DNA from: Psychroflexus lacisalsi
GTDB taxonomy: Bacteria; Bacteroidota; Bacteroidia; Flavobacteriales; Flavobacteriaceae
Direction of reading: 5' to 3'
Length of the DNA stretch: 64,000 nucleotides
Assembly (NCBI RefSeq): GCF_020164495.1
Contig: NZ_JAIQYZ010000001.1
Coordinates: 1,116,001-1,180,000 of the forward strand
The notes beneath the pieces were generated by a model. The model did no database searches and had not been told where the DNA came from. It worked only from the letters and a program-made list of their open reading frames with translations. Within the stretch, counting starts at the first letter, position 1, and each line of letters opens with the position of its first letter. The position numbers were made by a program, and so were the translations under genes. This document shows positions 12,263 to 64,000 of the stretch, piece after piece.

Positions 12263-12270
12263 TACTTTTG
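12263..12270 (+). promoter_or_regulatory. Putative -7 element of the btuB promoter
   Basis: TACTTTTG, identical to the element on the opposite strand in front of btuF. It predicts transcription starting near 12276, just before the first conserved riboswitch bases, which supports it. Confidence 0.55.
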
Positions 12271-12280
12271 CATTGCATTT

Positions 12281-12508
12281 TGGTTCTCAAAGGTTATTTT
12301 AACTTTTGAAGATTAAAAGGGAATTCCGTTAAAATCGGAAGCTGTTCCCGCAACTGTAAGCTTAGTACACAATAGATGTACGCTTTATTCCTCAACTTCG
12401 TACCCACTGTTCTTCGGAATGGGAAGGTTGAATAAAGACGCAAGCCAGGAGACCTGCCTCGATGCTTAATTTAAAACGAAGACTTTCGGGATAAAAGTCA
12501 AGTGGTGT
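12281..12508 (+). ncRNA. Cobalamin (adenosylcobalamin) riboswitch
   Basis: The conserved B12 riboswitch core is clear: a GGGAA segment, then GAAGCTGTTCCCGCAACTGT around 12340-12358, a long variable hairpin (12361-12440), and the B12 box GCCAGGAGACCTGCC at 12444-12458. The 3' part includes GACTTT-CGGGAT-AAAAGTC, an expression-platform hairpin that ends just before the btuB start at 12509. Binding of B12 would be expected to block translation or extension and so shut off btuB and the propeller lipoprotein gene. Confidence 0.95.
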
Positions 12509-33598: not shown

Positions 33599-33868
33599 TT
33601 ATTTTCTTAATCCTAATTCTTTTACAATTGCTCTGTACCTCATAATGTCTTTCTTCATGAGGTAGTCAAGAAGATTTCTTCTTTTACCAACCAATTTAAC
33701 CAAAGATCTTTCAGAATTATAATCTTTTCTATTTGTTTTAAGGTGTTGAGAAATGTGCTCAATTCTTTGAGTCATTAATGCAATCTGTCCTTCTGCAGAA
33801 CCAGAGTCTTTCTCGTTCTTACCATGTTTAGCAAATAATTTGCCCTTTTCTTCTAGTGTTAAGTACAT
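33599..33868 (-). CDS. rpsO: 30S ribosomal protein S15
   Basis: 89 residues, the full normal length. Carries the conserved LMTQRIEHISQHLKTNRKDYNSERSL rRNA-binding core (about 30-56) and the RRNLLDYLMKKD segment. Binds 16S rRNA early in 30S assembly. Located between accD and pnp. Confidence 0.98.
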   Translation of the reverse strand: MYLTLEEKGKLFAKHGKNEKDSGSAEGQIALMTQRIEHISQHLKTNRKDYNSERSLVKLVGKRRNLLDYLMKKDIMRYRAIVKELGLRK

Positions 33869-33968
33869 GCCAATATTATTTCAATAATTTTTATGCTAGA
33901 ATAGATTTTCTATTCGATCGCGCAAAAATAGCTTTTTAAAATTAAATAGAATATCAATTCTCAAAAAA

Positions 33969-61011: not shown

Positions 61012-61040
61012 TTGTTATAAGAATTATTAATTTATATTTG
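61012..61040 (+). promoter_or_regulatory. Two-element Flavobacterium-type promoter of the arginine operon
   Basis: TTG at 61012-61014, an 18-bp spacer and TATATTTG at 61033-61040 match the known -33 TTG / -7 TAnnTTTG layout with both parts present. Transcription should start near 61046, giving a leader of about 290 nt in front of the acetyltransferase gene. Confidence 0.6.
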
Positions 61041-61062
61041 GAATATGAATATCACTTATAAT

Positions 61063-61148
61063 ATTGTTGTTTTAAACATCCAGCCCATAAGGATGCCTCG
61101 TCGCCGTTAGTTTTTACTTACTAAAAGAATCTAGCGTCTCACAACAAT
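61063..61148 (+). promoter_or_regulatory. Candidate arginine attenuator leader RNA
   Basis: ATTGTTGT (61063-61070) can pair with ACAACAAT (61141-61148) to close a domain just after the predicted transcription start. Inside are a CATCC/GGATG hairpin (61077-61095) and a CGTTAG/CTAGCG pairing (61105-61110 with 61131-61136, one G-U). An alternative TTAGT/ACTAA stem (61107-61111 with 61120-61124) excludes the second pairing. The domain encloses the Met-Pro-Arg-Arg-Arg mini-ORF. Confidence 0.55.
61093..61110 (+). CDS. Arginine leader peptide MPRRR (candidate)
   Basis: ATG-CCT-CGT-CGC-CGT-TAG: five residues, three of them consecutive Arg, then stop. AAGG precedes the ATG. Its position in a long leader in front of an arginine operon is what a translation-sensing attenuator would need. 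A ribosome held at the Arg codons when charged tRNA-Arg is scarce would cover 61105-61110 and break the CGTTAG/CTAGCG stem. A chance origin cannot be excluded from one sequence. Confidence 0.55.
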   Translation: MPRRR

Positions 61149-61240
61149 TTTATTTATTTTGAAAACACCATATTCACATTTCGACAATTTAAATCATATC
61201 AATAATTCAATTGATGGGTTTAGTATTTCATTCTTTCGCC

Positions 61241-61267
61241 GCCCCTAGGGGCTATATCACTATATAG
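61241..61267 (+). repeat. Two adjacent perfect palindromes in the arg leader
   Basis: GCCCCTAGGGGC (61241-61252) is followed at once by CTATAT-CACT-ATATAG (61252-61267). Either could be an operator for a dimeric repressor or consecutive RNA hairpins, 68 bp before the first arg gene. No T-run follows directly, so they are not a simple intrinsic terminator. Confidence 0.5.
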
Positions 61268-61335
61268 AACTTAGATGAGTTCGGTTCTCTTCTCAAAAAT
61301 TTCACTTTTTTCTTTAAACTAATAAAATCAATGCA

Positions 61336-61956
61336 ATGAAGATTGTAATTGCTGATAAGTCTCATGCGGTTTACGCCAAAACCATTTGTGCAACCATTGA
61401 GGAAGCTGCAAAGGTTAGGGGGACTGGTATTGCCCAGCGCCAGCCGGAATATATTATTTCTAAGATGGAAAAGGGTAATGCCGTTATTGCCTTGGAAAGC
61501 GACAAGTTTGCTGGGTTCTGCTATATCGAAGCTTGGAGTCACAGCAAATTTGTAGCCAATTCAGGATTGATTGTTCATCCAGATTACAGAGATCAAGGTT
61601 TAGCTAAAAAGATCAAGAAAAAAATATTTGAACACTCCAGGCACAAATTTCCTGATGCTAAAATTTTTAGTATCACGACTGGACTTGCCGTAATGAAAAT
61701 GAATAGTGATCTGGGATATCGTCCTGTTACTTTTTCAGAATTAACCGACGATCAATCGTTTTGGAATGGTTGTCAAACTTGTAAAAACTATGATGTTTTA
61801 CAACGTACTAATCAAAAAATGTGTTTTTGTACAGGTATGTTGTATGATCCAAATCAAAAGCGAGAATCTTCAAATCTCAAAAAACCATTTGATAAAAAAA
61901 TCTGGAAACGATTAAAGAATATAAAGCTATCAATTTTAAAAAAGACCAAATCATGA
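61336..61956 (+). CDS. GNAT N-acetyltransferase heading the arginine operon (ArgA-like)
   Basis: 206 residues. GNAT core with VHPDYRDQGLAKKIKK near 80-95 as the acetyl-CoA loop. Then a Cys cluster, CQTC at 146-149 and CFC at 163-165, which could bind a metal, and a basic tail. Its place directly before argG and argC suggests N-acetylation of glutamate, the first step of arginine synthesis; Bacteroidota arginine operons often begin with such a gene. The classical ArgA kinase-like domain is absent. Overlaps argG by 4 bp. Confidence 0.82.
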   Translation: MKIVIADKSHAVYAKTICATIEEAAKVRGTGIAQRQPEYIISKMEKGNAVIALESDKFAGFCYIEAWSHSKFVANSGLIVHPDYRDQGLAKKIKKKIFEHSRHKFPDAKIFSITTGLAVMKMNSDLGYRPVTFSELTDDQSFWNGCQTCKNYDVLQRTNQKMCFCTGMLYDPNQKRESSNLKKPFDKKIWKRLKNIKLSILKKTKS

Positions 61957-63137
61957 AAAAATTAGTTTTAGCCTATAGTGGAGGTTTAGATACGTCTTAC
62001 TGCGCTTTGAGTTTATCTAAAGCTGGATACGATGTTCATGCTGTAAGTGTCAATACAGGTGGATTTTCTTCAGCAGAAATCAAAGAAATCGAAGAAAAAG
62101 CGCTTAAAATGGGAGTTTCATCCTATCATAATATCGATGCCGTGGCTTCATATTATGACAAAGTCATAAAGTATCTGATATTCGGTAATGTCTTAAAAAA
62201 CAATTCCTATCCTTTGTCAGTTAGCGCAGAACGAATTATCCAGGCGGTAGAAATTATTAAATATGCCAAAAAAGTAGGCGCTCAATATATTGCTCATGGC
62301 AGTACAGGTGCAGGTAATGATCAGGTAAGATTCGATATGATTTTTCAAACCTTAGCGCCAGAAATCGAAATCATCACCCCTATCAGAGATCAAAAATTAT
62401 CAAGACAAGAAGAAATTGATTATTTAAAATCTCATCAGGTGAACATGTCGTGGGATAAAGCAAAATACTCCATCAATAAGGGATTATGGGGAACCAGTGT
62501 TGGAGGTGAGGAAACCTTGACGTCTCATGAAGCTTTACCGGAGGCTGCTTATCCTTCTCAACTTCAAAATAATGAAATTGAAAAACTGGAACTCACTTTT
62601 GTAAAAGGTGAATTGGTTGCAGTGAATGGTGAAAAAAATAGCAAAGTCTTTCTTATTCAACAAGTGGAAAAGCTTGCTTCTGCATTTGCTATTGGTCGCG
62701 ATATTCACGTTGGAGATACGATTGTTGGCATTAAAGGGCGTGTGGGTTTTGAAGCTGCTGCAGCCCTGACTATAATCAAAGCACATCATTTGCTAGAAAA
62801 ACATACGCTCACCAAATGGCAACTTCAGCATAAAGATTTTCTATCCAGTTATTATGGCATGCATTTGCACGAAGGTTTGTATCTGGAACCCGTGATGAGA
62901 GATATTGAGGCCTTTTTAGAAAGCAGTCAAAAGAACGTATCGGGGACAGTTATTCTTTCACTCAAACCTTATCATTTTACACTAGAAGGCGTAACGTCAG
63001 ATCACGACCTTATGAATGCTAAATTCGGAAGTTATGGCGAAATGAATTCGGGATGGACGGCAGATGAAGCTAAGGGATTTATCAAGCTTTTTGCCAATTC
63101 AACTAAAATTTTTCATCAGGTCAATTCAGAAGTATGA
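61953..63137 (+). CDS. argG: Argininosuccinate synthase ArgG
   Basis: 394 residues. PP-loop LAYSGGLDTSY near 6-16, GSTGAGNDQVRF near 116-127, KYSINKGLWGTS near 170-181. Joins citrulline and aspartate with ATP. Starts in an ATGA overlap with the acetyltransferase and ends in an ATGA overlap with argC, so all three are translationally linked. Confidence 0.95.
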   Translation: MKKLVLAYSGGLDTSYCALSLSKAGYDVHAVSVNTGGFSSAEIKEIEEKALKMGVSSYHNIDAVASYYDKVIKYLIFGNVLKNNSYPLSVSAERIIQAVEIIKYAKKVGAQYIAHGSTGAGNDQVRFDMIFQTLAPEIEIITPIRDQKLSRQEEIDYLKSHQVNMSWDKAKYSINKGLWGTSVGGEETLTSHEALPEAAYPSQLQNNEIEKLELTFVKGELVAVNGEKNSKVFLIQQVEKLASAFAIGRDIHVGDTIVGIKGRVGFEAAAALTIIKAHHLLEKHTLTKWQLQHKDFLSSYYGMHLHEGLYLEPVMRDIEAFLESSQKNVSGTVILSLKPYHFTLEGVTSDHDLMNAKFGSYGEMNSGWTADEAKGFIKLFANSTKIFHQVNSEV

Positions 63138-64000
63138 TACACGTAGGAATAATAGGAGGTGCAGGATATACCGCCGGAGAGTTGATTCGATTGTTATTAA
63201 ATCATCCACAGGCTCATTTGGATTTCATTTTCAGCACATCCAATGCAGGGAACTTTATTAATCAAGTTCATCAGGATTTAGTTGGAACTACAAACTTGAA
63301 ATTTTCTTCTGAAATAAATTCAGAAGTAGATGTTGTGTTTTTGTGTTTAGGTCACGGAAATTCTAAAGCTTTTTTAGAGGAAAACTATTTTTCTGATCAA
63401 ACTAAAATCATCGATTTAAGTAATGACTTTAGACTTAAAGCTTCTACCAAATTTCAAGATAAAACCTTTGTGTATGGCCTTCCAGAACTGAATAAAATGG
63501 TTATCAAATCAGCTAATTGTATTGCTAATCCAGGATGTTTTGCAACGGCCATCCAGCTCGCACTTTTGCCTCTCGCTAAAGAACATCTTTTGCAAAACGA
63601 TGTGCATGTGAATGCGGTAACGGGAGCTACAGGAGCCGGAACTTCACCATCTGTCACAACCCATTTTGCCTGGCGAGATAACAATTTTTCGTCGTATAAA
63701 GTATTTTCACATCAACATCTGGATGAAATCTCTGAAAGCCTTATAGGACTTCAAAATGAATTCAATCACGGCATCAATTTCATTCCAAACAGAGGTAATT
63801 TTTCTCGAGGAATTTTTGCGTCTAGTTACACACATTTTGAAGGAACTCTGGAAGAAGCAAAGACGATTTATGAACAATTTTATGATGAAGCATGTTTTAC
63901 AATTGTATCAGAACAGGAACTTCATCTAAAACAGGTTATAAACACAAACAAATGTTTACTTCATCTTCAAAAGCATAAGAACAAACTGCTTATCACTTCT
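63134..64000 (+). CDS. argC: N-acetyl-gamma-glutamyl-phosphate reductase ArgC, 3' end outside the window
   Basis: 289 codons visible with no stop; full proteins are about 325 residues. Begins MIHVGIIGGAGYTAGELIRLL (NADP loop). The catalytic Cys is C135 in ANPGCFATA, and TGATGAGTSPS follows near 165. Reduces acetylglutamyl phosphate in arginine synthesis. In Bacteroidota, argD, argF and argB often continue beyond this point; that is expectation, not seen here. Confidence 0.94.
   Translation, partial: MIHVGIIGGAGYTAGELIRLLLNHPQAHLDFIFSTSNAGNFINQVHQDLVGTTNLKFSSEINSEVDVVFLCLGHGNSKAFLEENYFSDQTKIIDLSNDFRLKASTKFQDKTFVYGLPELNKMVIKSANCIANPGCFATAIQLALLPLAKEHLLQNDVHVNAVTGATGAGTSPSVTTHFAWRDNNFSSYKVFSHQHLDEISESLIGLQNEFNHGINFIPNRGNFSRGIFASSYTHFEGTLEEAKTIYEQFYDEACFTIVSEQELHLKQVINTNKCLLHLQKHKNKLLITS

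Follow-up and report, generated by a model that had tools for sequence, protein, structure and literature searches.

How the Flavobacteriaceae control arginine synthesis is a question without an obvious answer, because ArgR was not found in any of 100 family genomes. The same search (PF01316) was negative in the genome of Psychroflexus lacisalsi itself (0 of 1), and 9 of 14 controls, including a Bacteroides, were positive. The DNA analysed here, a stretch of 64,000 nt from that genome (the window), ends in an arginine operon, and the original prediction had placed an arginine-sensing attenuator in front of it. We compared this leader with the corresponding DNA of relatives.

The downstream genes had been correctly named as argA-like, argG and argC: a GNAT acetyltransferase gene, argG and argC were identified (Table 1). 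Beyond the window end, proC, argD, an N-acetylornithine carbamoyltransferase gene, argB, an argE-like gene and argH follow 3' of argC on the same strand, and the arg operon of this genome comprises nine genes. The GNAT gene was present in 98 of 149 family genomes, and upstream DNA was taken from all 98. Its start codon, in the window (61321–61368) and in 86 relatives, tends to sit in a small hairpin with the gene's own codons 3–6 (mean z -1.23 against shuffled upstream bases, 86 loci), so translational control of the first gene is possible. The upstream regions of ilv and thr in the window, read for comparison, gave no result.

Table 1. Features of the arginine leader and the operon start, in window coordinates
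Feature	Coordinates	Strand	Basis
Promoter (TTG, presumed element, 61012–61014; TATATTTG, 61033–61040)	61012–61040	+	Sequence; TATATTTG kept in 2 of 2 congeners
Leader ORF1 (21 codons and stop; MNITYNIVVLNIQPIRMPRRR)	61045–61110	+	Open frame from ATG 61045; includes MPRRR
Domain with 8-bp closing stem (61063–61070 with 61141–61148)	61063–61148	+	Covariation test, 34 loci
Hairpin C (last Arg codon and stop of ORF1, 61105–61110, with 61131–61136)	61105–61136	+	Complementary
Leader ORF2 (TTG start, 29 codons and stop; ends Phe-Phe-Arg-Arg-Pro-stop)	61159–61248	+	TTG kept in 2 of 2 congeners
Hairpin A (GCCCCTAGGGGC; contains ORF2 stop codon)	61241–61252	+	89.5% of cells paired; one pair changed on both sides
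Hairpin B (AGAACTTAGATGAGTTCGGTTCT)	61266–61288	+	92.4% of cells paired; 7 of 8 pairs changed on both sides
GNAT acetyltransferase, first operon gene	61336–61956	+	PF00583, E 6.3e-7; argA-like by position
argG	61953–63137	+	TIGR00032, 263.4 bits (cut-off 268.2, just missed); PF00764 and PF20979 exceed cut-off
argC (continues past window end)	63134–64000	+	

The promoter that had been claimed was found at TATATTTG. The TTG upstream of it is presumably a promoter element, an assignment made from general knowledge of Bacteroidota promoters. In the available passages on Flavobacterium psychrophilum, the promoter consensus is given as TAnnTTTG at -12 to -5 (PMC9723704). With this spacing the transcript is predicted to start at about 61045, that is, at the ATG of ORF1, which is apparently leaderless, with almost no 5' untranslated region. 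Of the 40 loci called tandem, 12 carry an exact TAnnTTTG at -12 to -14 relative to the first leader ATG, and of the 43 called single-leader, 18 carry one at -15 or -16; the remaining 12 of the 95 loci had no usable ATG, and near matches, seen by eye in more loci, are not in these counts.

A five-residue ORF, Met-Pro-Arg-Arg-Arg-stop, had been proposed at 61093–61110. The codons ATG CCT CGT CGC CGT TAG are present, but they form the 3' end of the 21-codon frame that opens at 61045. Both congeners examined (L116 and L120) retained ATG 61045 and TATATTTG; the ATG of 61093 was retained in L116 and replaced by TTA in L120. With this start codon lost in one of two congeners, MPRRR was rejected as a free-standing peptide.

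We found that the predicted 8-bp closing stem around this region is present and backed by covariation. Across 34 tandem-leader loci, whose arm sequences differ, arms from the same locus fitted each other better than arms exchanged between loci (0 of 2000 permutations), while two control regions gave 1537 and 480 of 2000. Its 3' arm ends 10 nt upstream of the ORF2 start. The inner pairings fared less well. CGTTAG, the final Arg codon plus stop that closes ORF1, is complementary to CTAGCG as described, but in relatives the pairing was only suggestive (133 of 2000 permutations); likewise TTAGT (61107–61111) complements ACTAA (61120–61124), but this competing stem is missing, by eye, from L120. 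Folded alone, the window leader had a z of -1.60 and 18 of 200 shuffles folded equally well, which is weak evidence.

The original observation was real, but its description stopped before the more conserved part of the leader, 61159–61288, although this lay within its coordinates. Here ORF2 is found, with only two Arg codons in the window. All 38 tandem loci that could be read keep its frame open for at least 29 codons, compared with 2 of 76 control (other) frames; two further tandem loci had no readable frame. In 37 of the 38, a start codon lay 24–31 codons upstream of the Arg pair (TTG in 18, GTG in 15, ATG in 3, and both TTG and ATG in one). In the tandem clade, GTA was considered as the start of a small ORF preceding RRxFPRRP and abandoned when TTG or GTG was found upstream.

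Two hairpins follow. Hairpin A (consensus CGCCC-GUAA-GGGUG) is made of the last ORF codons and, in most loci, the stop codon; its support consists of one double-change pair and variants such as L035 and L046. The linker behind it is U-rich, about 11–15 nt long and 57% T (84 loci). Hairpin B has a stem of mostly 6–7 pairs, a bulged A, two G:C pairs (GG:CC) and a UGNGU loop. Its core, AGGUGNGUCC, is nearly invariant, reading AGGTGAGTCC, AGGTGTGTCC or AGGTGCGTCC in 79 of the 89 rows on which hairpin B statistics were calculated (L044, L052, L088, L096, L097 and L098 left out; alignment A1 leaves out L096 and L098). This suggests that the core is read by something. Judged by eye, the core seems unlikely to pair with the Arg codons or the 16S tail: GATG/TTC variants keep the hairpin and break the other pairing. 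In 93 of 95 loci the core lay 57–114 nt upstream of the mapped gene start. L037 and L058 depart from the usual distance of about 65 nt: 183 and 260 nt separate their hairpin B from the gene start as mapped, with long AT-rich DNA between.

Covariation was measured in 46 sequences, chosen by the analyst from the 89 for building a covariance model. In these, 91.3% of cells paired against 84.4% in shuffles, and 8 of 13 pairs were changed on both sides. Double-change cells numbered 41, compared with 12.5 in shuffles, and sliding the partners destroyed the signal, which came mostly from hairpin B (7 of its 8 pairs).

The conservation check that had been proposed for Flavobacteriaceae relatives came out positive: Arg codons are widely kept upstream of the arg operon. 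The second element (an Arg-ending leader ORF with hairpins A and B) was found in 95 of the 98 fetched upstream loci, 86 by pattern and 9 with hand-placed hairpin B anchors (L026, L044, L047, L052, L082, L088, L096, L097 and L098). Neither approach found it in L053, L091 or L099. In L053 (genome G140), the 1000 nt upstream of the GNAT gene keep an ORF1-type leader (MRNLKNKIRCSVPGSPVRFRRRL), and ORF2, hairpin A and hairpin B are not recognisable there.

The covariance model matched 260 of 397 family genomes, in 165 of 237 genera, and gave no match in the other 137 genomes, nor among the 19 listed genomes of the large genus g128. In the genome of P. lacisalsi it found one strong site (61222–61292, E 4.8e-14), the next match having an E of 1.2. 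In a phylum sample 16 of 395 genomes matched, all 16 from the same family or genus.

Named genomes were also scanned with a DNA pattern that took no account of genes; this gave at least 119 stretches, at least 80 of them readable, with Zobellia, Maribacter, Cellulophaga, Winogradskyella, Tenacibaculum and Capnocytophaga among the genera in the record titles. Among the matches listed, the arg operon lay downstream in 78 of 80 readable stretches; the other two (L187 and L195) end too soon. In 77 of these 80 the GNAT gene was 48–105 nt downstream, and L190 had argG behind another first gene. argG was visible in 73, and the other 7 have less than 700 nt of downstream DNA. Sixteen genomes were searched again, giving additional matches of 17–26 bits, and 18 loci were viewed by eye; an arg operon lies behind L163 (21 bits) and behind L152 (71 bits), and the rest look like chance. 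In both (genomes G017 and G084, respectively) the first gene does not match this GNAT and argG comes next. The first gene of L163 matched PF00583 (E 4e-4), and that of L152 matched no Pfam family at 1e-3. The element therefore tracks the operon and not a single gene.

Most genomes have one leader, and the clade of the window has two in tandem. This clade comprises 45 rows with support of 99/93, from a tree whose bootstrap had not converged, and holds 36 of the 40 loci (among 95) in which ORF1, upstream of ORF2, was called. The four calls outside it (L023, L032, L085 and L086) are probably chance, and L018 and perhaps others inside it were missed by the filter. Single leaders usually start with ATG and commonly have 26–35 codons, with 10 loci lacking an ATG in the allowed range. 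In these leaders the ORF start pairs with the codons preceding the Arg run (stem E). For stem E and hairpin F, compared in 53 of 70 single leaders, a sequence's own partner fitted better than those of other leaders (0 of 2000 permutations for either; control 1981 of 2000); in the test of hairpin F the two windows share 6 nt. Single leaders also folded more strongly than synonymous shuffles (mean z -0.84, n = 65).

Taken together, a short ORF that looks translated lies between promoter and operon, and RNA structure overlaps its Arg codons (hairpin A and, in single-leader genomes, stem E just upstream). Clustered CGY codons lie within the 5' arm of a hairpin or abut it, and the ORFs lie at the predicted transcript start. 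This conservation, as judged from sequence comparison, gives strong support to an Arg-codon leader ahead of the arg operon. That part of the predicted arginine-sensing attenuator stands; the five-residue peptide and the switch as drawn are not supported. We consider it likely that the nine-gene arg operon is under cis-acting, ribosome-mediated, arginine-responsive leader-peptide control, and the conserved stretch is probably a built-in sensor which raises the pathway when arginine runs short.

The codons themselves bear on a first alternative, in which the Arg-rich peptide stalls its own ribosome at Pro-stop on sensing free arginine or a related metabolite, and not through starvation for Arg-tRNA. 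Arg-Arg-Pro-stop does end most leaders, residues such as HI and APVRPF are common to single leaders, and codon positions 1 and 2 vary less than position 3 (807 and 629 against 1139 differences, 126 pairs). Those shared residues, however, overlap the covarying arms of stems E and F. Codon counts were confined to positions -3 to -5, because the pattern used to pick loci fixes codons -1 and -2. Arg was found at -3 in 61 of 66 leaders and at -4 in 58 of 66, and Arg at -3, -4 and -5 was encoded by CGT or CGC in all 137 cases, compared with 20 of the 69 Arg codons counted in six genes of the window; at -10, 23 of 24 were CGY and one was AGA. This exclusive use of CGY indicates a constraint on the codons or the RNA. 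Nor is Pro-stop conserved: several leaders extend past it (among them RRTSVRV, RRTFVRA and RRPLGV) yet keep their Arg codons and hairpin A. CGY-only use and the variable stop position count against a pure nascent-peptide sensor, to which we give little credence.

We regard as similarly improbable a structured RNA, either a riboswitch or a protein-binding site, in which hairpin B senses and the Arg-rich ORFs are incidental or secondary. The near-invariance of the hairpin B core does exceed what a plain stem needs, but the conserved structure of about 25 nt is small for a ligand pocket. Such an RNA would also leave the open frame, the start codon and a frame-keeping 3-nt indel to be explained, as well as the clustering of Arg codons before arginine genes. 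That this is simply a conserved promoter and spacer which does not respond to arginine, with which the shuffle-like folding energy of the window leader would agree, is hardly credible given the covariation, the frame conservation and the operon specificity.

In the ribosome-mediated reading, scarcity of charged Arg-tRNA would stall the ribosome on the Arg codons, where it would cover the 5' arm of hairpin A and, in single-leader genomes, also the 3' arm of the closing stem E. The stall would keep these stems open and the operon would be expressed. With ample arginine the ribosome would terminate and leave, the stems would form and expression would fall. The model requires release of the ribosome before the decision, because a ribosome on the stop codon would also keep hairpin A open. 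No mutually exclusive stem pair was recognised among these leaders, and since stems E, F, A and B can all coexist, the switch is one that we infer. In the tandem clade ORF1 would be a second sensor upstream. Its closing stem has a 3' arm that stops shortly ahead of the weak TTG or GTG start of ORF2, so ORF1 translation may gate ORF2 translation.

Control could act on transcription (hairpin A and the U-rich linker serving as a weak terminator or pause site, or through Rho), on how the first gene is translated, or on decay of the RNA. The terminator/antiterminator switch that had been drawn was not borne out, as the window leader showed no terminator-like site and the competing stem was not seen in L120. 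A loose terminator scan from hairpin A to the gene was negative in 81 of 95 loci; of the 14 positives, 13 were hairpin A with its linker and one was hairpin B. Hairpin B was rejected as an intrinsic terminator, a T-rich tail following it in 8 of 95 loci and being absent from the other 87. A more specific picture, which we put forward tentatively, is a terminator-less attenuator in which leaderless Arg peptides decide whether hairpin A forms next to a constant hairpin B (with its bulged A, GG:CC and UGNGU) read by some factor, the whole serving as a family-wide stand-in for ArgR; one clade would stack two sensors, the first gating an ORF2 whose non-AUG start is selected. The absence of ArgR fits a leader acting as stand-in but is no proof of it.

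Attenuators of the trp/his type have a leader peptide rich in codons for the operon's own amino acid, with a terminator and an antiterminator. The arg leader shares the codon-rich peptide, whereas terminator and antiterminator are not established in it. Leaderless upstream ORFs occur in mycobacteria and in rhizobial trpL, where the leader ORF is at or next to the 5' end of the transcript; ORF1 would resemble these in position, though they concern other amino acids. Judged by the passages available, the nearest described case is Salmonella orf34 (SpeFL), a short ORF upstream of speF whose consecutive Arg codons sense arginine and where the position of the ribosome picks the RNA structure (PMC6386406). 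The short upstream ORF and the Arg codons are common to both. According to the same passages, however, the target there is ornithine decarboxylase and not arginine synthesis, the output is RNase G decay and Rho, and a single ORF begins 31 nt from the transcript start (PMC6386406); no sequence relation to the arg leader was seen. Within the same family, clues to leader-peptide attenuation before amino-acid operons are also reported for F. psychrophilum, in passages that name no operons (PMC9723704).

The arg leader did not match the Rfam family Bacteroid-trp (RF01692), which is listed in a table of PMC2864571. The GUCCY-hairpin motif of Bacteroidetes and Proteobacteria, listed in that paper too, is also a small hairpin and is likened here by name only: hairpin B reads GUCC followed, with few exceptions, by A or G, whereas the name of the motif implies a pyrimidine. 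No arginine leader peptide of Bacteroidota was recognised in the open-licence literature, and the arg leader would be a newly recognised form of ribosome-mediated leader-peptide control. One element, present in 165 of 237 sampled genera and placed before the whole arginine pathway in the window genome, offers an answer to how this pathway is controlled. It also lends itself to testing ribosome-coupled control in bacteria where Shine-Dalgarno pairing is seldom used, and has two oddities of its own, the conserved weak start codon of ORF2 and the hairpin B core.

Searches against Rfam 15 gave no match for the leader, neither at gathering score nor at E up to 1, and five loci searched at E up to 5 gave four weak matches, all below gathering score. 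The only window matches at gathering score lie elsewhere: a Cobalamin riboswitch at 12264–12475 on the plus strand (90.4 bits) and an S15-Flavobacteria ribosomal protein leader at 33866–33930 on the minus strand (58.8 bits).
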